This document shows positions 4,717 to 41,900 of a DNA stretch of 64,000 nucleotides, piece by piece. How positions within the stretch are numbered: the stretch's first letter is position 1; every line of letters begins with the position of its first letter. A model generated the notes under the pieces. It saw only the letters and a program-made list of their open reading frames with translations. It did no database searches and had not been told where the DNA came from. The DNA lies in NCBI RefSeq assembly GCF_024713975.1, contig NC_091109.1, positions 20,615,760-20,679,759 on the forward strand, in the 5' to 3' direction. The position numbers and the translations under genes are program-made. This DNA comes from Paralichthys olivaceus. Lineage: Eukaryota; Chordata; Actinopteri; Pleuronectiformes; Paralichthyidae.

Positions 4717-13262
<8,546 letters not shown>

Positions 13263-22121: not shown

Positions 22122-22145
22122 CCCCCCCCCCCCCCCCCCCCCCCC
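22122..22145. repeat. Poly-C tract at the left edge of the first duplicated unit
   Basis: Twenty-four consecutive C residues directly precede the point where homology with the second copy (at 25555) begins. The second copy is likewise preceded by a C-rich tract (about 25517-25554). Confidence 0.85.
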
Positions 22146-22397
22146 AACATCGATTTGGGTGACATCATAGCATCAAAGACAAAGAGTTACCAGAGAGCTT
22201 GGCATCACTATGACTTTGATGTCATCTCTTTACATCAATGCTCACACCTCACTTGGTCTATGTGGCTCACTTGGCTTGGTTCACTTTGTTTACTCAACAC
22301 ACATCTTGCTCAGTTTAACTTGTATTCTCGACGCAGCTTGTTGTTAGCATTCACTTAATTCTACACGTACAGAAAGATCTTAAAAGAAATAAAAAAC

Positions 22398-24122
22398 ATG
22401 GCAGATTCCACCAAGAAGTTTCCTCTGTCCCACACAGTGAAGGGAAGTATCCGCCAAAGGGATCCTAGGGTTTTTGTGAAGCCCTCAGTCTCCTCAAGGA
22501 AGAAGAGCGCCGTGGCTTCATCTAACCTCAGGAGCAAGAAGGGAGGACAGACTCAAAACAAGCCTGTCAAGGCCACTTTTGGATGTCCCTCTGAGGTAGA
22601 TGAGCAGCAAAAGAACAAGGAGCTCATCAGGGCTGTTAAAAGTATCCTGAGCAGCCTGACTCCTGAAACATTCCACTCCTCAGTGAGGCGGCTGAAGAAA
22701 CTGTGTCTGAACACAGTGGAGGAACTGCAAGATGTCGTCAACCTCATCTTTGAGAGTGCCGTTATGGGTGACTCTGCTCAGCTCTATGCCAGGATGTGCA
22801 GCAGCCTCCCAACGGTAGGTCACACATCTATGACAATGCAATCATCTTACACTGTATATATTAAAATACAAACAACAATGTTTTCCACCACATGTGAGTT
22901 GAATTAGTCTTAACAAGGTTTTCTTATGTTTTCTTCTCCTCAGGTCCAGTTCCAACCCACAGTTGACTCAAGAACTTTTGTCAACTTTACTATTTTGCTC
23001 GCCAGACGCTGCCGCGCAGAATACGAAGACATCTTTGGCCACGGTAACACTGATGAGAAAAGTGAGAGGGGATTGGAGCATATGAAAAAAGAGCTGGATG
23101 GGGCCACACTTCGTCGCTCCCTTCGTACGATAAAGTTTATCGGGGAGCTCTTTCTCGCTCGCATTTTGAGCGAGGCTGCAATGCACAGCTGCATCACGGG
23201 TCTCCTGAAGAACCAAGATGAAGAGTCTCTTGAGTGCCTGTGTGAGCTCCTCCAGATTATCAGCATGAATCTGGAGACAGTAACTTCCAAAAAGGTCATG
23301 AACGCACACTATGACCAGATGGATGTTATTGCCAAAGATGAAAAGACATCCTCCAGGATTTCTCTGATGCTGAAGACAGCAACAGACCCGAAGAGAAAAT
23401 TCCTCGGGCTGACTGGCGGCAGAGTTCGTAAGACCGAGGATAAAGAATCAGTCTCCACTCCCCAAGAGAAGGAAAAGTTCCACCTAATGCCACGACCAAG
23501 GAAGCCCACTGACTATAGGCCTGTTGCGTCCTTGAAAGAGCAGCCACGCTGTGAGCCCACTGTGGATGAAGAGCCACAGTTACATTGGGACATAACGGAG
23601 GACAGTGAAACCTTTTCCGAGAAGATAATTGTCAATTATCTTACAAATGGCAACTTAGAAGAAGCCATGAGCTGTGTGGCAGAGCAAATGAGCCCCTCAC
23701 TCCTCCATGTGTTTGTCTGCTCTGCTGTGGACTTGACCTTTGAGAGCAGCAGTGACTCTCGGAGGAAGATGGGCCTGTTGCTGCGCCGGCTGCACGAAGC
23801 AGGAGTCCTATCAGCGGAGCAGATCGTGAAAGGTCTGCAGGACATAGTGGAGACGGCTGTCTACATTGACACAGAGGTGCCGAACATCTGGCGCTGCCTC
23901 GCTGAGGTCATCAACACTGTGCCACACCTGGCTGAGGTCATCAACACTGTAGCACACCTTGGTGAGGTCATCGAACCTGTGCCACACATCGCTGAGGTCA
24001 TCGACCCTGTAGCACACCTTGGTGAGGTCATCGACCCTGTGCCAAACAAGGGCACGTCTCCACTGATGAGATGTTTGGAAGCATCCCGTTGCTCCCATCT
24101 ACTTAACCGGCTGGTGTGCTGA
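22398..24122 (+). CDS. Short eIF4G-like protein, copy A (MIF4G + MA3 domains only)
   Basis: Two exons, 22398-22814 and 22944-24122, with a phase-0 GTAGGT...CTCAG intron, encode 531 aa. The ATG has a good context (AACATGG). Residues about 74-290 form a MIF4G domain (LTPETFHSSVRRLKKL; RTIKFIGELF; HSCITGLLKNQDEESLECLC; KTSSRI), matching eIF4G1/3 helix by helix; in eIF4G this domain binds eIF4A and eIF3. A charged linker leads to an MA3 domain (about 362-460: FSEKIIVNYLTNGNLEEAMS; SPSLLHVFV; EVPNIWRCLAE), in eIF4G a second eIF4A site. No eIF4E-binding Y-x4-L motif, no PABP-binding region and no C-terminal W2/MNK domain are seen. Residues 460-509 are five 10-aa repeats, followed by a short Cys-containing tail. 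Polyadenylation signal candidates lie at 24193-24198 and 24248-24253. Known eIF4G proteins are about three times longer. Inference: a derived eIF4G paralogue, perhaps acting as an eIF4A-binding modulator of translation. Confidence 0.8.
23904..24053 (+). repeat. 30-bp coding minisatellite, five units
   Basis: Five tandem units encode EVINTVPHLA, EVINTVAHLG, EVIEPVPHIA, EVIDPVAHLG and EVIDPVPNKG. They begin exactly where the MA3 domain ends, and the first unit itself looks like the final MA3 segment (CLAEVI-P), so the array appears to have grown from that segment. Copy B has three full units and a remnant. Confidence 0.9.
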
Positions 24123-24615
24123 GAATCCACCCCCCAACCAATGCCGTTCCTCTGGACCTGACTCAATACTTAGCCCAACCTGTTAGTTTAACAATAAAAA
24201 TGTTTGTTGAGTATTCCTGGACGTATGTTTTGTTCTGTGAAACTTTAAATAAACTTCATCTAGAAATGAATTGGCTGCATATTATGAACATTAGTATTAT
24301 TATTTATAGTTTTTTCTATTTGTGGACAGATTTGAACACAATAGCATCTTAATTGTGCAAGATGCAGTCATGGGACCCTACAGGTGTGTGGCAAAATGTA
24401 GATGTGGTCTGACCCACAACTGCTTACATTGTGGTTATAACTATTCAATCAATCAATGAAACTTTATGTATTCAACATATTTTATATTGATAATTTGTTG
24501 ATGAGACAGACATAAGAAAACAACTGCAAGCAAAAGCCAATGAACAATTAAAACAAATAAAAACCTTCATTTAGCTTCACTGCTAATCGAAGCTCATTTC
24601 CAGAGTCTACACCAC

Positions 24616-24866
24616 CATGCCACAAACCTGGGTGGAACGAATGCTCATTCCGGTGGACTACAGTCACCCTCCTATTGATGATGAACGCCCCCCATGAGGC
24701 TGGACAACATCTGATGGGACAAGTGCAAGCACCTACTATTGTGTTGAAGACAGGGTGCTGCTGTGGAGAGAACACCATGACTACTTTCCTCATGGTCTGT
24801 TGTGTCATAATCTTTAGTCTAATGCTCGTCTGCACTGTCTTCCTCGCTTTATTTTTGTGGAAGTAA
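24616..24866 (+). pseudogene. Possible remnant frame with a transmembrane segment
   Basis: Frame 1 from ATG 24616 reads MPQTWVERMLIPVDYSHPPI and stops within a C run near 24690. An overlapping frame from 24675 reads MMMNAPHEAGQHLMG and ends in a strongly hydrophobic segment (FLMVCCVIIFSLMLVC...LALFLWK), which looks like a membrane anchor, then TAA at 24864-24866. The frames are offset around the C run, as if separated by an indel. No homologue is recognised, and either frame could be chance. Confidence 0.2.
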
Positions 24867-25293
24867 GAAGTTTATGTGGAACCCAAGTTACCTGTTCTAC
24901 CATTAAAAAGTATTCCACTTGGTGTTCAAAAGCAGTGAAATTAAAGAAATAAAAAATAAAAACAATTTGGGACTTATTCATGTTGTAAAATTCAGGTGAA
25001 ACAAACTAAATGAAAAATCAATATAATACAATAAAAGTGTGTAGTAAAAACTACAGCAAGAATAAAAAGTGGGGTTAGATAGTTAGAAATTATGTTTAAT
25101 AATGATAAAATAGTGAACTGTTTATGAGTAACAAATAAAAATGCTTCAAATACCAAACGTTTGACTATAGTGTTGTAGTAATGATGTCATAATGTAGTAA
25201 TGACTCCAGATGTTCATGTAATAATGTAGTAATGAAGACAGAGTGATCATACAATAATTAAGTCTGCTGATTACTCCTGTACGTGTTATTGAG

Positions 25294-25343
25294 TATTACT
25301 CACATTTTAAGACCTTCGAACTGGTCTTTAAATGTGAGTAATA
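25294..25343. repeat. Imperfect inverted repeat: 21-bp arms, 8-base loop
   Basis: Left arm 25294-25314 (TATTACTCACATTTTAAGAC then C) pairs with right arm 25323-25343 (GGTCTTTAAATGTGAGTAAT then A) with one mismatch. The loop is TTCGAACT. It sits about 210 bp upstream of the second duplicated unit. Confidence 0.9.
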
Positions 25344-25806
25344 TTGTTTTTAATGTATTTTTTGATTTAGAGACTCTCACAACCAGCAGCTGAAGGAAAC
25401 TTAAAACTGGCAGCTAAGCCTTTATATTAAAGGAAACTGCACCCACGATATAAATATTTAAACGCTATGATTATTTAAAAACATAATTTCGAATTTTTGG
25501 AAAATATGTATTATAACCCCCCCCGCCACACACACACCGAGCCCCCCCCTCCCCAACATAGATTTGCGTGACATCATAGCATCAAAGACAAAGAGTTACC
25601 AGAGAGCTTGGCATCACTATGACTTTGATGTCATCTCTTTACATCAATGCTCACACCTCACTTGGTCTATGTGGCTCACTTGGCTTGGTTCACTTTGTTT
25701 ACTCAACACACATCTTGCTCAGTTTAACTTGTATTCTCGACGCAGCTTGTTGTTAGCATTCACTTAATTCTACAAGAACAGAAATATCTTAAAAGAAATA
25801 AAAAAC

Positions 25807-27489
25807 ATGGCAGATTCCACCAAGAAGTTTCCTCTGTCCCACACAGTGAAGGGAAGTATCCGCCAAAGGGATCCTAGGGTTTTTGTGAAGCCCTCAGTCT
25901 CCTCAAGGAAGAAGAGCGCCGTGGCTTCATCTAACCTCAGGAGCCAGAAGGGAGGACAGACTCAAAGCAAGCCTGTCAAGGCCACTTTTGGATGTCTCTC
26001 TGAGGTAGATGAGCAGCAAAAGAACAAGGAGCTCATCATGGCTGTTAAAAGTATCCTGAGCAGCCTGACTCCTGAAACTTTCCACTCCTCAGTGAGGCGG
26101 CTGAAGAAACTGTGTCTGAACACAGTGGAGGAACTGCAAGATGTTGTCAACCTCATCTTTGAGAGTGCCGTTATGGGTGACTCTGCTCAGCTCTATGCCA
26201 GGATGTGCAGCAGCCTCCCAACGGTAGGTCACACATCTATGACAATGCAATCATCTTACACTGTATATATTAAAATACAAACAACAATGTTTTCCACCAC
26301 ATGTGAGTTGAATTAGTCTTAACAAGGTTTTCTTATGTTTTATTCTCCTCAGGTCCAGTTCCAACCCACAGTTGACTCAACAACTTTTGTCAACTTTACT
26401 ATTTTGCTCGCCAGACGCTGCCGTGCAGAATACGAAGACATCTTTGGCCACGATAACACTGATGAGAAGAGTGAGAGGGGATTGGAGCAGATGAAAAAAG
26501 AGCTGGATGGGGCCACACTTCATCGCTCCCTTCGTACAATAAAGTTTATCGGGGAGCTCTTTCTCGCTCGCATTTTGAGCGAGGCTGCAATGCACAGCTG
26601 CATCACGGGTCTCCTGAAGAACCAAGATGAAGTGTCTCTTGAGTGCCTGTGTGAGCTCCTCCAGATTATCGGCATGAATCTGGAGACAGTAACTTCCAAA
26701 AAGGTCATGAACGCACACTATGACCAGATGGATGTTATTGCCAAGGATGAAAAGACATCCTCCAGGATTACTCTGATGCTGAAGACAGCAACAGACCCGA
26801 AGAGAAAATTCCTCGGGCTGACTGGCGGCAGAGTTCGTAAGACCGAGGATAAAGAATCAGTCTCCACTCCCCAAGAGAAGGAAAAGTTCCACCTAATGCC
26901 ACAACCAAGGAAGCCCAACGACTATAGGCCTGTTGCGTCCTTGAAAGAGCAGCCACACTGTGAGCCCACTGTGGATGAAAAGCCACAGTTACATTGGGAC
27001 ATAACTGAGGACAGTGAAACTTTTTCTGAGAAGGTAATTGTCAATTATCTTACAAATGGCAACTTAGAAGAAGCCATGAGCTGTGTGGCAGAGCAAATGA
27101 GCCCCTCACTCCTCCATGTGTTTGTCTGCTCTGCTGTGGACTTGACCTTTGAGAGCAGCAGTGACTCTCGGAGGAAGATGGGCCTGTTGCTGCGCCGGCT
27201 GCACGAAGCAGGAGTCCTATCAGCGGAGCAGATCGTGAAAGGTCTGCAGGACATAGTGGAGACGGCTGTCTTCATTGACACAGAGGTGCCGAACATCTGG
27301 CGCTGCCTCGCTGAAGTCATCAACCCTGTGCCACACCTCGGTGAGGTCATCGAACCTGTGCCACACATCGCTGTGGTCATCGACCCTGTAGCACACCTTG
27401 GTGAGGTCATCGACAAGGGCACGTCTCCACTGATGAGCTGTTTGGAAGCATCCCGTTGCTCCCATCTCCTTTACCGGCTGGTGTGCTGA
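25807..27489 (+). CDS. Short eIF4G-like protein, copy B (MIF4G + MA3 domains only)
   Basis: Exons 25807-26223 and 26353-27489 encode 517 aa with the same start, intron position and domain order as copy A. MIF4G covers about residues 74-290 and MA3 about 362-460. Counting by eye, the two proteins differ at roughly 17 aligned residues, mostly polar or charged swaps (for example R to M in LIRAV and E to V in DEESL), plus repeat differences at the C-terminus: three full 10-aa units and a truncated EVIDKG unit instead of five units. The frame is fully open, so neither copy looks like a pseudogene. A polyadenylation signal candidate lies at 27630-27635. As in copy A, eIF4E-, PABP- and MNK-binding regions of eIF4G are not seen. 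Function is inferred only from the domains. Confidence 0.8.
27313..27420 (+). repeat. 30-bp coding minisatellite, three units plus remnant
   Basis: Units encode EVINPVPHLG, EVIEPVPHIA and VVIDPVAHLG, followed by a shortened EVIDKG. Compared with copy A this is 14 codons shorter, equal to one whole unit and a 4-codon deletion, both in frame. Confidence 0.9.
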
Positions 27490-27769
27490 GGATCCACCCC
27501 CCAACCAATGCCCAAACCATTCCTCTGGACCTGACTCTCTACAAACCCCAACCTGTTATTTTAATATTGAAAATGATTGTTTGTTTTATATTCCTTGACA
27601 TATGTTTGGTTCTGTCTTGTGAAACATTTAATAAACTTAATCTAGAAATGCATATTAGAAGTATGTTACTGTAATACAACCAATATTGGTGATAAAGGAT
27701 GTGGCTAACACACCTCAGCTTTAAAACATCTGCTTTGTAACAACAGGATAATCACTCAGAGAAAAGATA

Positions 27770-28315
27770 CTGGGGTGACGTCACCGAGGCACGCAGTCGC
27801 TGAGCTAACGCTAGCTTCCAGGCTGCTCGTTAGCCCGCTGAAGTTAGCTAGCCTTTAACCGGGTGAATGTGCTGAGCACCAGGACACAGCTGCTTTAAAA
27901 AAATACTGTACTGTAAAGCACCTGATAAATATTCTGCCATGTTGCGCAAAACTAGCAGCAGCAGCAAACTCCGTGTAAACAAACACAGCTGATCTCAACT
28001 GATCTGCGGCTGCGCGCCTCGCGGACGTCACCCCAGTGAAAGCCCGGGATGTAAACAAAGCAACTTGGACTCACAGGGAACCAGTGCTGGCAATTCATAG
28101 TAAATAAAGAGTTTCACGGCAGATAATGGTTATTTAGAGGCTGTGTGGTGGATGCCCCGATCACTTGTGTTGTATGGATATACGCAGATCGCGTGTGGAT
28201 CTAAAAGCGTCCGAAGGACTCCATGATACTCCAAACCTTTATGGGTGAGTAGATCTACAAACCATATGCTGGAAATAAGGTCCAGGTTGAAAAAAAACGA
28301 ACTTCTCCTTTAACA
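27770..28315. repeat. Probable CpG-rich interspersed repeat
   Basis: The sequence begins near GGGGTGACGTCACCGAGGCA, passes through CGCTGAGCTAACGCTAGCTT and GACGTCACCCCAGTGAAAGC, and ends near CGAACTTCTCCTTTAACAG. This style is typical of non-autonomous DNA elements in teleosts. GGGGTGACGTCA near the start and TGACGTCACCCC-like text (GGACGTCACCCC) near 28023 form an inverted pair. No protein frame was found. Confidence 0.4.
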
Positions 28316-32559: not shown

Positions 32560-32942
32560 GCAGTAGGTGATAAAAGCTCTCGCGCATTTGGCGCATGGAC
32601 AAAGGAGCGCACCTTTTGGATTCAGGAGCGCACGGTGGAGAGGGGCGGGCCCATCGTGACACCACCGGTATCTGCTCTGTAAATACTCGCTCCCTCTCTA
32701 AGTGGCTCGTCTTGACCGGACATCTTCTCCAAATCGTCGCTCTCCTTTAATAAAACTTGCCACATGCGCGCACGGTGCAGCGGGAGGACTGCGCCGCCGC
32801 TCCGCCGTGCGTCTTCGCTTCTCCACATGAGTTGAGCGCGTAAGAAAAAAGAAAAAGAAAAAAGAAAGCCTTGCAGACCGGATGGTTCGGTGCCGTATAG
32901 TGGAAACTTCGGGCTGGACCAAACGTCTCGGCTCAGCCCGGT
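32560..32942 (+). promoter_or_regulatory. Candidate promoter and 5' UTR of the opsin
   Basis: GC-rich, CpG-containing sequence directly upstream of the opsin ATG, with a GC-box-like GGGGCGGGCC near 32642. No TATA box was convincingly placed. The stretch 32840-32870 is a run of A/G words in the probable leader. The transcription start was not determined. Confidence 0.4.
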
Positions 32943-35900
32943 ATGATCGTTTCCAACGTGAGCCTGAGCTGTGAGCACTGTCCCGGGGGAGGAGCCGGCG
33001 GCACAGCGGCGACGGATGCGTACAAAGAGGTGCCCGGCACTCTCCCTCCTCCGTCCCTGAGCCCGACGGGGCACCTGGTGGTGGCCGTGTGCCTCGGCTT
33101 CATCGGCACCGTCGGCTTCCTCAGTAACTTCCTGGTGCTCACGCTGTTCTGCCGCTACCGGGCGCTGCGCACACCCATGAACCTCCTGCTGGTGAGCATC
33201 TCTGCCAGCGACCTGCTGGTCAGTGTCCTGGGGACCCCGTTCAGCTTCGCGGCCAGCACCCAGGGGCGGTGGCTGATCGGACGCGCGGGGTGCGTCTGGT
33301 ATGGGTTCGTCAACGCGTGTTTGGGTGAGCAGGTGTTTTTTGTTATTTGTCTTTATCTCCGGAGCCCAAAACAGCAGCAGGACATTTAATCTGGAATGAA
33401 ATCTGTCAAATCGTGTCTGTATCTGCCTTGTTGTGACTTATCTGCTTCTGCAGAGATGAAATATTGATTTTTGTCTTCACTTACATTCACTGCCCGTCAG
33501 ATAAGATAGTGTCTGTGCGCAATTATTGGAAATTGGCTTCTTTTTTTCCAGCATATTGACTCGTCAGCTCCTTGTAACTGTGAGATTTTGTCTCCAAATC
33601 ATGAATTTGTTCAGATAAAAACTTTTTCCACTTGACTTTGTTTTCATCAGCTTCTCTCTGTTGCACGTTTGCCACAAGAAGATATTAATGCATCTGTCGC
33701 CTGCAGCAAAACTCACACAAACCATACAACAGGATTAAAATCCTATACACTCAATTAATTCTGCGGTTAATATCCATTAAAATCTCATTAAGTTGTGAAG
33801 GTGTAATGTGCTGATTGCAAACTGAAGGATCTGATCTGGTGAAGTGTCATAATTTAGATTTAGTCCCAGATTGAACAATAGATTTTTGGCAAATGCAGAA
33901 AGAAAGAAAAAACGCGGGAAAATCATTTCATATCACATGAGATAGTAAATCTGCTCCTGTCACGTTCTTATCTGGTTCGTCAGAGGTCGACGGAGCTCTT
34001 CACCGGTGCAGGGATCTGACCTCTGACCCCTCGGTTTCCAGGTTATTCACCATAATCACTGTCAAGCATCGTTTCACGGCTCAGCTCAGAAACCTTGAGA
34101 TCCTGATTTTCCAGACAGTGGAGTGAATCAAACTGATGTTGTTGATCAAGGGGGGGGTGTCCTTGCTGTGCCTGGATTTTTGATGACTTAAGACGTTTTA
34201 CACTTTGCAACTAAGTGGTTCTGTGATTGAGAGCAATTGCATGTGATTAATCAGTGTGTTAAGTAGGCTAAACACATCACTTTGCCCTCACTCACCTTGC
34301 TGCTGCACCCTGAAGAGGTGTTGCTACTCTTAAAGATATTTGTTTTGTCTTTGGAGTGTGGCCCTGTAGCAAGGTTGAGGAAGGTGTTATCGTTGGCGCT
34401 CTTAAATAAGTGGTTTTCCCCCGTCGAATCTGCACCAGGAGAAAAGTGCACTGAGGTGTTGCTCTTAAATCTGTTGTTTTCTCAAAGGAATCTGGACTTG
34501 CAGTAAGAAACACTTAGATGCAACGTGTTGCTCATTATTTAGCTGTTTTCTCAATGAGGTCTTGTCTTGCATGAAGCTGAATGAATGATAAAGATGGTTT
34601 GAAGTTTGGTCTTGAAATAAGGTGCAACGAAGCATTTCTGTTGCTCCTAAATTTGTCATATTCTCTATGGAACCTGGACTCAGAGTAAAGTGAGCTATGT
34701 AAGAATCAGGAAGGGGCTGTTGTTCTTTTCTCACCTGTTATCTCTATGAAGTCATGAGTTGCAGGGAAGCTCTGTAAGATGCTCTCAAATCTTTTGTTTC
34801 CTCAATGGAATTTGGTCTTTGCTCTCAAATCTGTTCCTTCCTCTGTGGACTCTGCACCAGAGTAAAGTGCACTAAGATGCTGCTGCTTGATTTGCTGCAG
34901 TAAAGTGTTTCTTTTAAAGCTATTGATTTCTCTTTGGAGTCTGGAGTAACAGTAAGGGATTGCGAAGTGTCATTGCTATTAAACTAGCTGTTTTCTCTAT
35001 GGAATCTGGACCTTGAGTAGAGTGCAGTGAGATGTAAGGTGCAGTGTGATGATGCTCTTGCTCCTTTGTTTTTCTCATTGATGTTTGGTGTGTTGCAGTA
35101 TGACACGGTAAGAAATTGTTTCTCACAAAGCTATTGATTTGTATTTGGAGTCTGGACCTTCAGTAAAGTGCTGCTGTGAATAAATAAGTTGTTTTCTTTA
35201 CGGAATCTGGACTTGCAGTTTTAGCTGCTCTTAAATCAGTTATTTTCTCAATGGAGTTTGGTCTTGCAGTATAGCAATGCAATTTGTTGTCATTGCTCTT
35301 AAATTGGTTGTTGTTTCTGTGGAGCAGCAGTAAGGTGCGCTAAGATGTGAGGTGCTGTTGGTCTTTCTCTATGAAGTTTTGCACGAAGGTACTGTCAGGT
35401 CCTTAATCTGTTCTGTTCCTGTTCAACATTAAGGTGTTATTGTTTCTTTTGCTTCTGTCAGAGTTTCTGTTAAACCAGATCGTTTATGGTTTTGCACCTC
35501 CATTTATCTTCTCTTTCACACACCAGTTTTCAATCTCATCTGTTTTCTCAACTTTCCTCCATCAAACTGATTCTCACTAAAGTTGCTGCATAACTCCGCT
35601 TTATATCCTCTCTGTGATGAAACATGCACAATTCATATAATCTGCAGTTCATCCATGACCCGAGGACCCGCTCGATTAATTTTGCACACTGTTCCTCGGC
35701 GGTGCGTGTTCCCGAGCACCTGCAGAATAAGTAAGTAATAACCAAAAGCATCAAAATTTTACGTGACGAGATCAAAAGGCTTCTCTCACTGTTGCCGAGA
35801 CGCTTTAGAGATTCAGGTCGGAGCTGGGCTTGTCATCTGCAACATGATATAGATACCCCCCATGTGATGCTGAGTTAATGTGGGTTAAATAAGGTTTATG

Positions 35901-38900
35901 CATCTTCAACAGTTTTAAAACAAAGTCAGAACATAGTGGATTTGGTGCAAAGGTAATGGTACTGTTGGGCCATGGTGGAGTTCTACTGAGTGTCATTCTA
36001 GTTTAAAAATGGACCCGAGTGAGCAGAATAAACCTCTATGAGAGATTTATGTCCGAGGAGGGAGAACATTGTTGGATCTGATTCCAGCAAGAATGAGTTT
36101 GAACTCTGCAGGTTTCAAACTGTTTTTCCAGCTGAGAAAGAAAAATGCAGCCTGAGGGTGATATTGAGCCTGATTGCATCTACTTTTTAAAACATGTTTC
36201 TTTGTGCAATAGCTGGACAATTCTGAGCAATTTATTTGAACCTACAGGTGGCCTCCCCAGGTGTCGCTTTGTTGATGTGCAAATGCCCAATACAAAAACC
36301 AGAATGACTCTGTTCGGAGAATGGCGCTCAGATTGGCTCAAATTATGAAATCTACACGAAGCCAGAGACGACGTCAGTCCAGACTTACTCGTGCAAAAAC
36401 TGAAATTACAGAATTGGAAATTCACCCTGCAAAAACACAAGTGCACAATCACACAGTACTGTTTGGTCAGTTTAATAAAACAAGCTGGATAATCCTCAGA
36501 CCCACATTAATACTATGAAAAGGTTAAAGACGTCTCATTTCACCCTCCGGCTGCAGGAGCTGAGGTGGAACCTGCTTCGTTGTTGAGTCACTAATTAGAC
36601 ATTGTCTGTTCCACTACAATTACCCAGGCAACACCAGAGCTGGTGCCCTGTAACTGTAATCGAGCCGCATCAGGTCACTCTCGCTGGAATAAGATCTTGT
36701 TTCTGAAGTCAAAAGGCTCTTTTGTTCTCCTCCTCCCTTTCTCTTTCTTCTTTTGCTTCTGCAGGTTATTTTCTCAGTTTGCCCTTCGTCACGATCAATA
36801 AATCATTGGCCAACAGGTGCAAGATTTGGGAAACTGTTGCAAACAGGTGGTGACATTTTAAGCATCAACAATTAACGGAGTAATCATAAAAATAACTGTT
36901 ACATGCAGCAGTAATTTTCTTTTGTCACATAATCTCCATCAGTACTTTCCCTGTATGAAGTTTTCATCATGCGCACTGTGAAAACACAAGCACAAGTCTG
37001 GTTATGCTTAGACACAGTCAAGATATAATCTTTCCTCAGAAGAAATCAAGATACAGAAAATCAGGTTTCACTAATCCCCATAAGCTGATTAGGAAAACCA
37101 AATTTCTTTTATCTGACTTTGAAGAAATCAGGTTACACCAGAAAGCCACCAGTAACAGGATTATGCAGAGTAAATGCATGTAAACACAGTGGGAGTGCGC
37201 TGGACGTTGTGCTGAGTGGTCAGATTTGGCACAAGTGCTATTGTTTTGCCAACAATTGGATCTGAAACAAGACAGAAAGAAAGAACAGACTGAGAAAGAC
37301 AAAGAGAAAGAGGAGACAAAGAAATAGACGAGGTGAAGCAAGAGAGAGATGATTAGCTCCCGTGCTGACTCAGGCCCGGGACACTGGGTCAGTCATTCTG
37401 CAAATTATTCCACACCTCTTGGGGAAAGAAGATTCAGGCCTCAGGTGAAAACCCCATTAAAATGCACATCGGAGAATGTGATGGTGGTGACGTTTGAATC
37501 AAAGTCACACGCTGGGAAATGATTTGCGGCCCTGTGTCCCCAGGAGGCTCCGAGCAGAGACTGTACAATCATCACAGCAAATGAAAGCTGTTAGAGACGT
37601 TAGCAGACAATTCAAACTCAAAGAATAGACTGTGTTAGACAGGTGAGGACTTGTTTACCCGAGATCACTCTATAATTATAAAATAATCCAAACACAAATG
37701 TATTTTTCTCAGTGAAGTGCATATCGCCCCACAGTCCCCACAGTGTGAAACCACGTTTAAATCTGCCAGATGTGGATTTGTCCCAAATTTCGCATATTCG
37801 CAGATAAAAGTCCCCATTTTTCAAATCGGAAAAAAAAAAGAGTCCAGAGAACATTTTCTTTTTCAAAAGTGTGTCGGTTTTAAATATCTGCAGACCTCAT
37901 CGGTCACATGTTGGTATCTTTTGTCATTTCAACACAATGTGTTAATAATGCTTGACCCACAAGTGTAGAGGAGTGGAGTCGACCTGCTTTATGTAACCAG
38001 AGGGCATCAGTAATGGACAGAGGGAGCTCTCTCTACCTGCACACACACACACACACACAATAATTTAATTATTCTCAGGACTCTTTGCTGTTGCTCTCAA
38101 CACGGTGTTCGCCCACTACCTCACCCCGCTGTCCAAGCCAAACGCGAAGCCGTCATTACGGATCCAAGTGCTCTGATTGTCTGTAATCAAAGTCAGCAAA
38201 GTGCCCCTGGACCGGCACTTAACTTGTGTGCGCTGATTAGCTCTGATTTAAGAATTTTCTCCAGTTGCATATGTTCATCAAATAGCAATTAACATGCAGA
38301 AGAAGATGGCGTACAGCTGTGCTGCTGTCTGCGTCCGCGTCCGCTTTGATGCAGATGAGAGCGCGTGTTTGTTCCGTGTGAGAAGCAGGTGTAAGCAGCT
38401 TCATGATGATTTACGTGACCACTTAGGATGTAATGATTAGCTCAGGATTCAGGTTGAGTCACAACACGCAGCTCATGTTTCGTTCCGGGGATACGATGCA
38501 AAGTTGGATTGTAAGTAAACTAGACGTCTTTATTTTAAATGTAAAATGTTCAGAATATATCGGAGCTTCAGTGTTAGAGCCCTGCCCATATGGATTTTGC
38601 CGTTGGCTGTTGATATCAATATTAGTGAGTAAAAAATAAACAAACAGCCAAATCAGAAGCATCATAATCATTGACCACTTCCTCTCTGCACCCCCCCCCC
38701 TCAGGCATCGTCTCCCTCATATCCCTCGCCGTTCTGTCCTACGAGCGCTACTGCACCATGATGGCGCCAACCATGGCTGACGGCAGAGACTACCGCCCCG
38801 CGCTGGGAGGGATCTGCTTCTCCTGGCTCTACTCGGTGGCCTGGACCGTCCCCCCGCTGCTGGGCTGGAGCAAATACGGGCCCGAGGGCCCCGGCACCAC

Positions 38901-41900
38901 CTGCTCGGTTGACTGGCGGACCCAGACGCCTAACAATATCTCCTACATCATCTGCCTGTTCACCTTCTGCCTGGTGCTGCCGTTCATCGTCATCCTCTAC
39001 TCCTACGGCAAGCTGCTGCTCGCCATCAGACAGGTGGGACTGCAAATGTAAATATTAATGTTGTTTCTTAGCGTCAGAGCATGTGTCTGCGTTGGTTTTC
39101 TCAAACAATATTGGAAAACACAAAGAAAAGCAAAGGTACCGACTGTGTATGTAAATATTTGAAGAGTGTAGGAACTACACATCCCATGAACCATTGCAAA
39201 TGACCCCATTCCAATGACTTCCTGCACCTCGCATCTAAAAAAACTGCAGCTTGTTAGGGCTCCACCAATCAGAGACATCTCTATTACACCTGAGGACTAT
39301 GGGTAGTGTAGTACTCTTTGACTACCGTGGATGGTTAAAATATTACAGCTGATAGTCAGTATGTTTCCTGGGATTTCTACTTCACGCTGTTGAGCCCTTT
39401 AGATCATGGACGTTGTGGTTGCATTAAAAAACATGCAGCTGTCTGCATATGAGACAGTCAAAGCACTTGAGTATAGACCCCAGACATGACACCAGAAACA
39501 AAGAGGGTTCCGTAGTGACTCTTGAAGTTATTGACTCCAGCGGTACACGCTCTAATTTATGATCACAACTGATCCTCGACGGTATCGAACGCCTCCGGGC
39601 CTCTCGTCAGCCTCAGACCGAAGTTCATACATTTCAAAGAATCGAGCGTGGAAGCTGAGAATCGAAGCCGCGTATCTCTAGAGCCTTCTATCAGGTTTGA
39701 CATCTCCACAACGTCGTCTGTTAAAGCTGCTGACACTAATTCATACACTGTCTGTGTGTGGACATAATTTACAGCGTGATGCAGGAACAGGAGGCTCCCG
39801 AGATAATTTAATTCCAGTTATTGTTGCCGAGCAGGTAAAATATTGTGTTTGCTCCTGACGCATATTTCCTAAAAGTACAAGTAAAGTTTTGAGAAAGATT
39901 TAAAGGCATTGTTGAAACTTCAACAGAGGACGATAGAAACGTGAGGGATGACGGAGGAAGGTTGGAGGCGAGGCTTGGAGGATGTTGCATCACGTTAAAA
40001 TGCAGTTTGTGAGCCGATATGCAAACGCGCTTGGAAATAATGTATGTTCTGGCTCAGGTGTGATATTTCTATCGTCCGGCTCATAAATAAAGTTCATGGT
40101 TCTTAAAACTTAGAAGAATTAGAGCGATAAAGAGAGAGGGGAAGTAAACATAACAAAACTGGATGGATCTATGGCAGCCTGATATCAAATCCAGCTACTT
40201 CATTAAAAATTAAATTTTTCCTGCCAATTATTTTCTCAATCAACAAAGTACACCAGGTGCTCAGCAGAGTTAAAGACCCAATTAAAGTTGGTCTGATCGA
40301 ACAGTGTCTATTTTATGTATGTGTATATATCAGGACATCAGTGTCCTCCATGAAAAGAAGATGATATTAAATAAAAACTGTTTAAAATGTTGTTGACAGT
40401 TTTTAATTGGTTAGAAAAGTATTTTCTGCATCAAAAGAGGTGAAAACTGTCTTTGCAGAGATGCAGAGGTCTCGTCTGCAGGCCGGTGTTAATGATAGGT
40501 CTATAGTTTACTCTGCTGAAGTGCTTCATTAAACCTCAAGGCTACAGACCTTCACACCCACGGTCAGATAATCACAGGAGACAAAAACTCTGTATTTAGT
40601 GTGTGTGTGTGTGAGAGAGATAGTTCCTGTACTTCTGCTGATGACACAGAACAGGCCTTCGTATTGTTTCAGGGAATGTGGGTGTTTAAACGACCTGAGG
40701 AGGCGTTTACATTCTACAGTTACACACAAATTATTCACAGCTGGCTTCGGGAGTTGATGAAGATATTTTTAGACCGAGTGGTTCTCATGTCATGTTCACT
40801 TGAACGAACCGACTTTAGCTGTAAGTGGCATGTATGAGTGATTTCAGAGAATGTGTATGGGTGCCAGTTTCACATGACTACAAATGGAAATATTTGGATA
40901 AGAACATGAAATGGTTTTTTGCGTCAGGCGTGCACCTTTAACATCTCAACCTCTGACTGTTTTCGGGCATGAATATTGTTGTGCAGGATGTGAACCAATA
41001 TTTAGATCATCATGTTGTATAACACTGATCAGTTGAAAACAAATGTTTAAAGATAAGATTGATGGGCAGAGCTGCGGATTTTGATGAGATCCAGGCTGCG
41101 TACCTTTGTGTGTTTTGTGCGTGTGTGACTGTGAACATTAAGTGAGTGATCTCACCTAATGTGCCTGCATTTGCATCATTCTCTTGATTTATTACTTCTG
41201 TTCGGGAGCTACGTGCATCCGGTGTGCGTATCCACGAATTTGGCTTGCCTCACACTTTGGTTGTGCGTCATACGTCTTCCTTTACCTTTGCGGGTCACGG
41301 TTAAATGTGTTTGCTCGCGGCTGTGAACCACACTCAGGTGTTGTGCTGTTTGCACAAGAATTGAATTTGCCACACCATTTGCTGGTTCATGTTCCACGGC
41401 TCTGTGGGTGCAAGCTCTCTGAACGTTTTATTTTTGCTGTTGCTGCTTTGTAATATATGTTTGTAGTGTATTTTTGATGGAATTATAAAAACAGAAAGTT
41501 TGAAAAATTAAAAAAATTTGAGAAAGAAAATGTAAAAAGAAAAGTTAACGTTCCCTTTTTCCTACTTTAATAAACATTTTATAGTTCACACGATTAAATG
41601 CATTTATCTTATTCCCCAGATAAGAAAAGGCTGAGACCTGGCACATGTGTATTTGGAACAGATTTGGACCAAGTCATCAAAAAGACCTGCAACACCTTAG
41701 ATTAAATTTGGCAACCAGGCCCAGTTCTGATCTGCCAGATTTGGGCCGATATCGGACCAAACAGATTTTAGCTTCCTGGGAGTCGATAACCATAAAGAGC
41801 TTTGACGTTTTCTGTAGTGCCACCCTGAGGTAACAGCTGCCATCTGTAGTGTAATGTCTCAACAGCTGTCGGATAAGATGGTGCAGATATCCACTTCCTC

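Follow-up and report, generated by a model that had tools for sequence, protein, structure and literature searches.

Tandem MIF4G-MA3 genes

Two adjacent genes, A and B, lie on the forward strand of the window, the whole 64,000-nucleotide stretch analyzed here. They are 97.8% identical to each other, both are intact and each carries one intron; gene A encodes a product of 531 aa (coding span 22398-24122) and gene B one of 517 aa (coding span 25807-27489). The start ATG of gene A has the context AAAAACATGG, with an in-frame stop TAA at 22356. Gene A and its spacer make up a tandem unit of ~3.4 kb, and in alignments of at least 60 bp the spacer was found again on C13, C18 and C4. The features of the locus are as follows.

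22133..25541, +, tandem unit of ~3.4 kb, made up of gene A and its spacer
22398..22814, +, gene A exon 1, 139 codons, coding for the N-terminal tail and the beginning of MIF4G
22815..22943, +, gene A single intron, 129 nt, phase 0, GT..AG, occupying the ancestral intron site of eIF4G MIF4G
22944..24122, +, gene A exon 2, remaining MIF4G, linker, MA3, repeat tail and stop
23619..23915, +, gene A MA3 domain, uninterrupted (Pfam PF02847)
23897..24044, +, 30-bp tandem repeat, 4.9 copies, a decapeptide repeat at the end of gene A MA3
24193..24253, +, AATAAA signals of gene A, at 24193 and 24248
25807..26223, +, gene B exon 1
26224..26352, +, gene B single intron, position and phase as in gene A
26353..27489, +, gene B exon 2
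27028..27327, +, gene B MA3 domain (Pfam profile)
27306..27414, +, 30-bp tandem repeat at the end of gene B MA3, 3.6 copies
27630..27635, +, AATAAA signal of gene B

Pfam analysis revealed matches to MIF4G (gene A, E = 5.9e-24; gene B, E = 4.8e-23) and MA3 (gene A, E = 5.2e-16; gene B, E = 1.5e-15). The initial annotation, which described a tandem pair of intact, minimal genes with these two domains and a single intron inside MIF4G, was confirmed. The remaining Pfam matches of both proteins were under their cut-offs and unrelated, and no W2 match was detected at E ≤ 1. Exon 2 of gene A, the sole query used against the prokaryotic NCBIfam library, matched no family. We also examined the possibility that further in-frame exons supply the missing eIF4G parts, which had been named as grounds for refutation. 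No W2-like exon was seen by eye among ORFs listed for the spacer and for the DNA beyond the genes, and AATAAA comes after the stop codon of both genes; extra downstream exons adding W2 were rejected on these grounds. The eIF4E-binding part was likewise absent, as annotated: a probe for the Y-x4-L-phi motif, which finds it in the C11, C16 and C2 canonical eIF4G genes, was negative in all six intact copies of the family described below. The stretch ahead of MIF4G is only ~75 aa.

Relationship to known factors

The best PDB matches were to eIF4G1 (E = 2e-61) and eIF4GII (E = 3.3e-41), with DAP5 at E = 4.7e-15. Together with the Pfam matches, these results bear out the annotated eIF4G type of the two domains, and chance similarity was rejected at the E value for eIF4G1. 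In alignment with human eIF4G1, 92/220 MIF4G and 43/107 MA3 residues of the gene A product (mini A) were identical. Minis differ from eIF4G1/3 in having no eIF4E motif or W2 and no room for a PABP region. DAP5 (eIF4G2/NAT1) resembles them in being related to eIF4G yet lacking the eIF4E and PABP region, but it has W2 and the residues N86 and R295, and the minis score far higher against eIF4G1/3. Membership of DAP5 was rejected given its weaker match and the missing W2; judged by sequence, the similarity is of the eIF4G1/3 type. The MA3 domain is common to the minis and PDCD4 (E ~1e-6), but PDCD4 membership was rejected, since the minis have MIF4G and PDCD4 has two MA3 domains and no MIF4G (abstract of PMC3850090).

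AU tests gave P = 0.69 for minis outside eIF4G1/3, P = 0.27 with eIF4G1 and P = 0.053 with eIF4G3, on an unrooted tree, where placing the minis as sister to eIF4G1/3 or to DAP5 gives one and the same topology. These values do not set the mini clade firmly inside eIF4G1 or eIF4G3. Origin from intron-rich eIF4G-like array genes was disfavoured (P = 0.031 or 0.061, depending on the form of the constraint).

CWC22 is a MIF4G and MA3 protein. Neither CWC22 nor NOM1 was among 20 PDB matches at E ≤ 0.001. The initial annotation knew of no named gene with this layout; this did not hold, as NOM1, described in part of PMC4072693 as a nucleolar protein of 835-860 aa, has MIF4G and MA3 like the minis, though it is longer and need not be a close sequence relative.

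A multi-locus family in the host genome

An isolated tandem pair was rejected, as the host genome contains at least 10 mini-eIF4G loci spread over five chromosomes, and at least six fragments. Six of the 10 loci are intact; the four others comprise one with a stop and three without the 5' coding part. Two further, more distant MIF4G-only subfamilies (II and III) account for at least six loci. All counts are lower bounds, with 81 of 122 candidates scored. Subfamilies II and III cluster with the minis (support 99.9/100) and gave no MA3 match in Pfam, which means that the clade does not share MA3 throughout. The pattern of change in this young, fast-changing family suggests a job other than that of the parent gene. 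No report of such a fish mini-eIF4G family was found among the literature matches listed.

These loci could be neutral duplication debris, that is, young non-functional copies some of which are still unbroken. The stop-bearing locus, the three truncated loci and the fragments fit this reading, as do the exon-2 frames of the three 5'-truncated C4 copies, which have stayed open (371 and 431 aa, rechecked, and 397 aa in the third). An open frame is therefore no proof of function by itself.

Selection on the intact copies

Codon tests covered the six intact copies, which were chosen from the 10 loci (the other four were left out), and used the 437 codons that all of them share, without the repeat tail or any gapped column. 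These tests revealed an omega of 0.53 (P = 0.0025), in keeping with the annotated intact frames. By region, omega was 0.66 for the N-terminus and linker (P = 0.10), 0.60 for MIF4G (P = 0.024) and 0.27 for MA3 (P = 7e-5), with heterogeneity between regions (P = 0.034); omega exceeded 1 in no region tested. Purifying selection acts on the six intact copies, most strongly in MA3 and weakly in MIF4G. Divergence between copies was higher in coding sequence (~5.5%) than in the spacer (~3.9%) and dN was close to the spacer value, which means that only weak constraint acts outside MA3; the dN value is also what debris would give, and an omega of 0.53 is compatible with recent relaxation too.

In nucleotide alignments, all coding indels between intact copies were multiples of 3; spacer indels among four copies were 1, 2, 4 or 7 nt. 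Neutral simulation with indels included kept all six copies intact in 0/2000 runs at each of two rate settings, compared with 0.4-4% without indels. The simulation is rough, because the no-stop results vary between runs (0.4% and 1.15% in two runs of the same setting) and the indel rate was guessed from few spacer indels. The in-frame indels, the simulation and the codon tests, above all in MA3, argue against debris, which we regard as improbable.

Intron site and origin

The mini intron has the site and phase of an intron in all three eIF4G1/3 genes checked at base level (junctions LMG|LKV in C11 and C16, LAT|LKV in C2 and LPT|VQF in the minis). The same intron was identified at base level in subfamily II and by frame break in subfamily III. 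Five more introns of C11 and C16 are absent from the minis; the three of these in MIF4G are also present in C2. By site and phase, the single mini intron is an ancestral phase-0 eIF4G intron.

A partly processed retrocopy, already raised in the initial annotation, is the likeliest origin, because one ancestral intron was kept in place and at least five others are gone; most parental introns were lost precisely, as in a retrogene. The basis of this assignment is the intron pattern; no poly(A) tract or target-site duplication was noticed at these loci. The present copies spread as DNA together with their flanks. Retrocopies often acquire gonad expression, and by analogy with other gonad-specific initiation-factor copies the minis might be a germline or oocyte translation paralogue, a role we hold to be unlikely. 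Rodent preproinsulin I and the TMF1 insertion are semi-processed copies in which, similarly, some introns were kept and others lost; the TMF1 insertion is described as 3'-truncated (text of PMC4151081), and the minis also lack the 3' part.

Contact residues and proposed role

DAP5 N86 and R295 are described as touching the two eIF4A lobes (text of PMC10746786), and the N86A mutation as abolishing eIF4AI binding (text of PMC4402527). In all six intact minis the counterpart of N86 is Ser and that of R295 is Ser or Thr; in contrast, the C11, C16 and C2 canonical genes retain N and R (3/3). The initial suggestion that the protein competes for or recruits eIF4A is thus unsupported for MIF4G. MA3 might still bind eIF4A, but this is uncertain too, as alignment with PDCD4 placed Tyr in the mini at one of the two acidic positions that serve PDCD4 as eIF4A contacts.

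The same residues bear on whether the minis are a minimal working eIF4G/DAP5-like factor that binds eIF4A and eIF3 and drives cap- or eIF4E-independent translation. Both domains remain recognizable by Pfam (E of 6e-24 and 5e-16), core segments such as IKFIGELF and ESLECLCxLL are conserved and the HEAT-1 H918 position is kept. Against this stand the replaced eIF4A contacts and the eIF3l-contact segment, described as eIF4G1 Met775-Ala787, which reads MFQQLMKQVTQLA in the human eIF4G1 row and TFHSSVRRLKKLC in mini A. The minis also lack W2, and DAP5 activity is described as falling without it (text of PMC9726905). We consider such a factor doubtful.

Our tentatively preferred reading is that the minis are a diverged eIF4G derivative that may modulate initiation or act as its decoy, mainly via MA3. 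An eIF4G1/3-type transcript, spliced in part and without the 5' part (eIF4E and PABP sites) and the 3' W2 part, would have been copied into DNA. One ancestral intron, at the same codon boundary today and presumably spliced, would have been carried along. DNA duplication would then have produced the tandem and interchromosomal spread, with birth-and-death evident in the mix of intact and broken loci, truncated copies and fragments. Protein is probably made from the intact copies, because their frame is under selection. This protein would work chiefly through MA3, its most constrained part, while MIF4G, whose eIF4A-contact residues are lost in the alignment, may be a modified scaffold. It would probably be a modulator or decoy in translation initiation, of the PDCD4 or DAP5 kind, that cannot bring in the cap.

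eIF4G is a hub that normally has few copies. An intact, selected, cut-down family without cap, PABP, W2 and canonical eIF4A-contact features would be a natural set of decoys or modulators. Such a family allows one to ask directly what MA3 does once MIF4G has lost its hold on eIF4A, and why fast-evolving families sometimes draw in initiation factors. More speculatively, and with rather low confidence, a fish lineage may have evolved dedicated eIF4G-derived regulators in which a MIF4G stripped of eIF4A contacts is joined to a conserved MA3, with arms-race-like multiplication and recycling and with side branches dropping MA3 or amplifying a 124-aa N-terminal repeat.

Because eIF4G is a target of viral hijacking and cleavage, the minis could have been kept and diversified as a host decoy surface. 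Rapid locus turnover and the lower constraint on MIF4G than on MA3 would be consistent with this, and norovirus VPg is described as binding eIF4G HEAT-1 (text of PMC4703368), where the M-H-x-C part of the mapped patch is kept in the minis. However, patch residue D919 is Ser in the minis and no region had an omega above 1; we judge this reading very unlikely.

Finally, the eIF4A-contact positions were read in intron-rich eIF4G-like relatives. Asn is retained at the N86 position where covered. The R295 position is Cys in 4/6 covered relatives (C3, C15, C17:14.36 and C2:17.15) and Arg in C1 and C12; as aligned, replacement of R295 is not unique to the minis.

A family of one-intron MIF4G-MA3 genes

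Two genes in the window, A and B, lie head-to-tail and follow one common plan.

22398-22814 and 22944-24122, + strand: gene A, 531 aa, 129-nt phase-0 intron
25807-26223 and 26353-27489, + strand: gene B, 517 aa, 129-nt phase-0 intron

Both frames run from ATG to stop, as the initial annotation had described for two adjacent intact MIF4G-MA3 genes. Each has an in-frame stop 42 nt upstream of the ATG (context AAAAACATGG) and is followed by AATAAA signals. Coding identity between A and B is 97.8% (pairwise dN/dS ~0.5), and a 30-bp repeat encoding a decapeptide repeat at the MA3 end differs between them in copy number. Both proteins contain MIF4G and MA3; a domain search of both revealed no W2 domain.

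A search of the genome to which the window belongs (588 Mb, 25 contigs), using protein A together with the MIF4G and MA3 profiles as queries, revealed, instead of an isolated pair, a family of at least 10 loci with the same plan (minis): two on chromosome C17 (A and B), one on C18, three on C13, three on C4 and one on C19. The C17, C18 and C13 copies (six in all) are intact from ATG to stop, with the intron as in A and B. The C19 copy has a stop inside the frame. In the three C4 copies the 5' coding part is missing from its place and exon pieces are rearranged; their exon-2 frames remain open (371, 397 and 431 aa). Fragments alone were found at six more loci (C12, C18, C9, C19, C21 and C13). 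The spacer between A and B has long matches on C13, C18 and C4 at 89-96% identity; thus, copies moved as DNA along with their flanks. A spacer ORF (24561-24863) with a membrane-like stretch at its end (MTTFLMVCCVIIFSLMLVCTVFLALFLWK) is kept with its stop in 6/6 aligned spacer copies, some with a frame slip in an upstream C-rich run. Adjoining gene B is a ~520-bp dispersed repeat (27797-28315) with dozens of copies, often inverted pairs; its portion up to 28190 is common to the window and the C4 locus.

Two more distant subfamilies gave no match in an MA3 profile search. Subfamily II (three C18 loci and one on C24; 99.35-99.7% identity over 2.46 kb) carries in exon 1 a tandem 124-aa unit comprising the tail and the start of MIF4G, with five units plus one final complete unit in the fully read C18 copy and four plus one on C24. 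Subfamily III comprises two inverted C18 copies (98.9% identity over 1.6 kb). A second, intron-rich eIF4G-like gene, with units ~10.4 kb apart, has a first MIF4G exon ~50-59% identical to human eIF4G1 and further relatives on C1, C3, C12 and C15.

C18:7153382-7156389: subfamily II gene (L057, L035), 124-aa repeat in exon 1
C24:11781994-11784627: subfamily II gene (L058, L037), near-identical to the C18 gene
C10:24.12-24.24 Mb: intron-rich array, at least 9 copies
C4:27.67-27.69 Mb: intron-rich array, at least 3 copies
C17:14.36-14.38 Mb: intron-rich array, at least 3 copies
C2:17.15 Mb: intron-rich gene, at least 1 copy

Origin of the family

Protein A matched eIF4G1 (2e-61), eIF4GII (3.3e-41) and DAP5 (4.7e-15). 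In the MIF4G tree, minis and subfamilies II and III formed one clade (support 99.9/100), placed in the best tree between DAP5 and eIF4G1/3; as the tree is unrooted, the clade may equally be sister to either. This position possibly reflects long-branch attraction to DAP5. The nesting within eIF4G envisaged by the initial annotation was not rejected for eIF4G1 (AU test, P = 0.27) and was marginal for eIF4G3 (P = 0.053).

The full eIF4G1/3 genes on C11, C16 and C2, used as canonical references, have a phase-0 intron exactly where the minis have theirs, making this the ancestral site. Within the stretch compared, C11 and C16 contain five more introns, three in MIF4G (following KELEAAS or the corresponding residues, DFEKAK and DLR) and two inside MA3. 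The minis have none of these five; the three in MIF4G are also present in C2. The initial annotation had offered a partly processed retrocopy or extreme intron loss. Because one intron was kept and the others were precisely lost at a new locus, the founder was most likely a semi-processed retrocopy of an eIF4G-type gene, with stepwise intron loss a possible alternative route. According to the available text of PMC4151081, preproinsulin I of rodents and an insertion of TMF1 truncated at its 3' end are semi-processed precedents, resembling the minis in having some introns kept and others gone.

Selection on the minis

Among the six intact copies, picked for being intact, omega was 0.53 (LRT versus 1, P = 0.0025) and differed between regions (P = 0.034): 0.66 for the N-terminus and linker (P = 0.10), 0.60 for MIF4G (P = 0.024) and 0.27 for MA3 (P = 7e-5), the most constrained part. 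Across all 15 pairwise nucleotide alignments, every coding indel was a multiple of three; spacer indels, compared in a set of four copies, were 1, 2, 4 or 7 nt. With indels included, neutral simulations left all six frames open in 0/2000 runs for each of two rates; when indels were omitted, the share was 0.4-4%. Against selection, a weak-constraint reading draws on coding divergence (~5.5%) exceeding that of the spacer (~3.9%), dN close to the spacer rate, the choice of copies by intactness, and the long open frames of the truncated C4 copies.

Probable loss of eIF4A contacts

No eIF4E-binding motif was found in any intact mini, in agreement with the initial annotation; the identical probe detected it in all three canonical genes. 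According to the available text, DAP5 N86 and R295 contact the two eIF4A lobes (PMC10746786) and N86A abolishes eIF4A binding (PMC4402527). In protein A, these residues align with S85 and S279. Ser occupies the N86 position in 6/6 intact copies, in two exon-1 pieces from C4 and in the four subfamily II loci (complete unit); C19 has Arg there, and subfamily III does not align at this site. At the R295 position, 17/17 alignable family loci carry Ser or Thr. The canonical genes have N and R. To guard against over-reading, the intron-rich relatives serve as a control: they keep N, with Cys at the R295 position in 4/6 loci covered. The eIF3l-contact segment, Met775-Ala787 of eIF4G1 in the available source text (our numbering takes H918 of another paper as its anchor, differs by one residue from that paper's and was fixed by the named end residues), has likewise diverged. 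With both contact residues replaced in 6/6 intact copies, the mini MIF4G would, as far as sequence tells, have lost its known eIF4A grip, arguing against the earlier suggestion of competition for eIF4A in so far as this would go through MIF4G; MA3 may still bind eIF4A.

Beyond the structure, family, intron history, selection and residue changes observed here, the mini protein is probably expressed and would act through MA3. Because cap, PABP and W2 functions and MIF4G-eIF4A contacts appear to be missing, it would be unable to stand in for eIF4G; competing with initiation or modulating it is the more likely role. In subfamilies II and III, which lack MA3, the clade adopted MIF4G-only forms as well, and this weakens a single-mechanism account.

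The MIF4G-MA3 combination by itself is known: NOM1 has both domains, as the minis do, contrary to the initial view that no named gene has this layout. Among the matches listed, in a search lying mostly outside subscription journals, no publication described a MIF4G-MA3 family that derives from eIF4G1/3, has duplicated repeatedly and has lost its eIF4A contacts; sequence databases may well contain automatic annotations of such loci.

Elsewhere in the window, a kinase-like exon (6909-7343) presumably resembles TNK2/ACK1; its whole ORF gave no Pfam match at E<=0.01. Exons of a rhodopsin-family receptor (Pfam 7tm_1) lie at 32901-33389 and 38668-39051, and we take them to resemble a TMT-type opsin.
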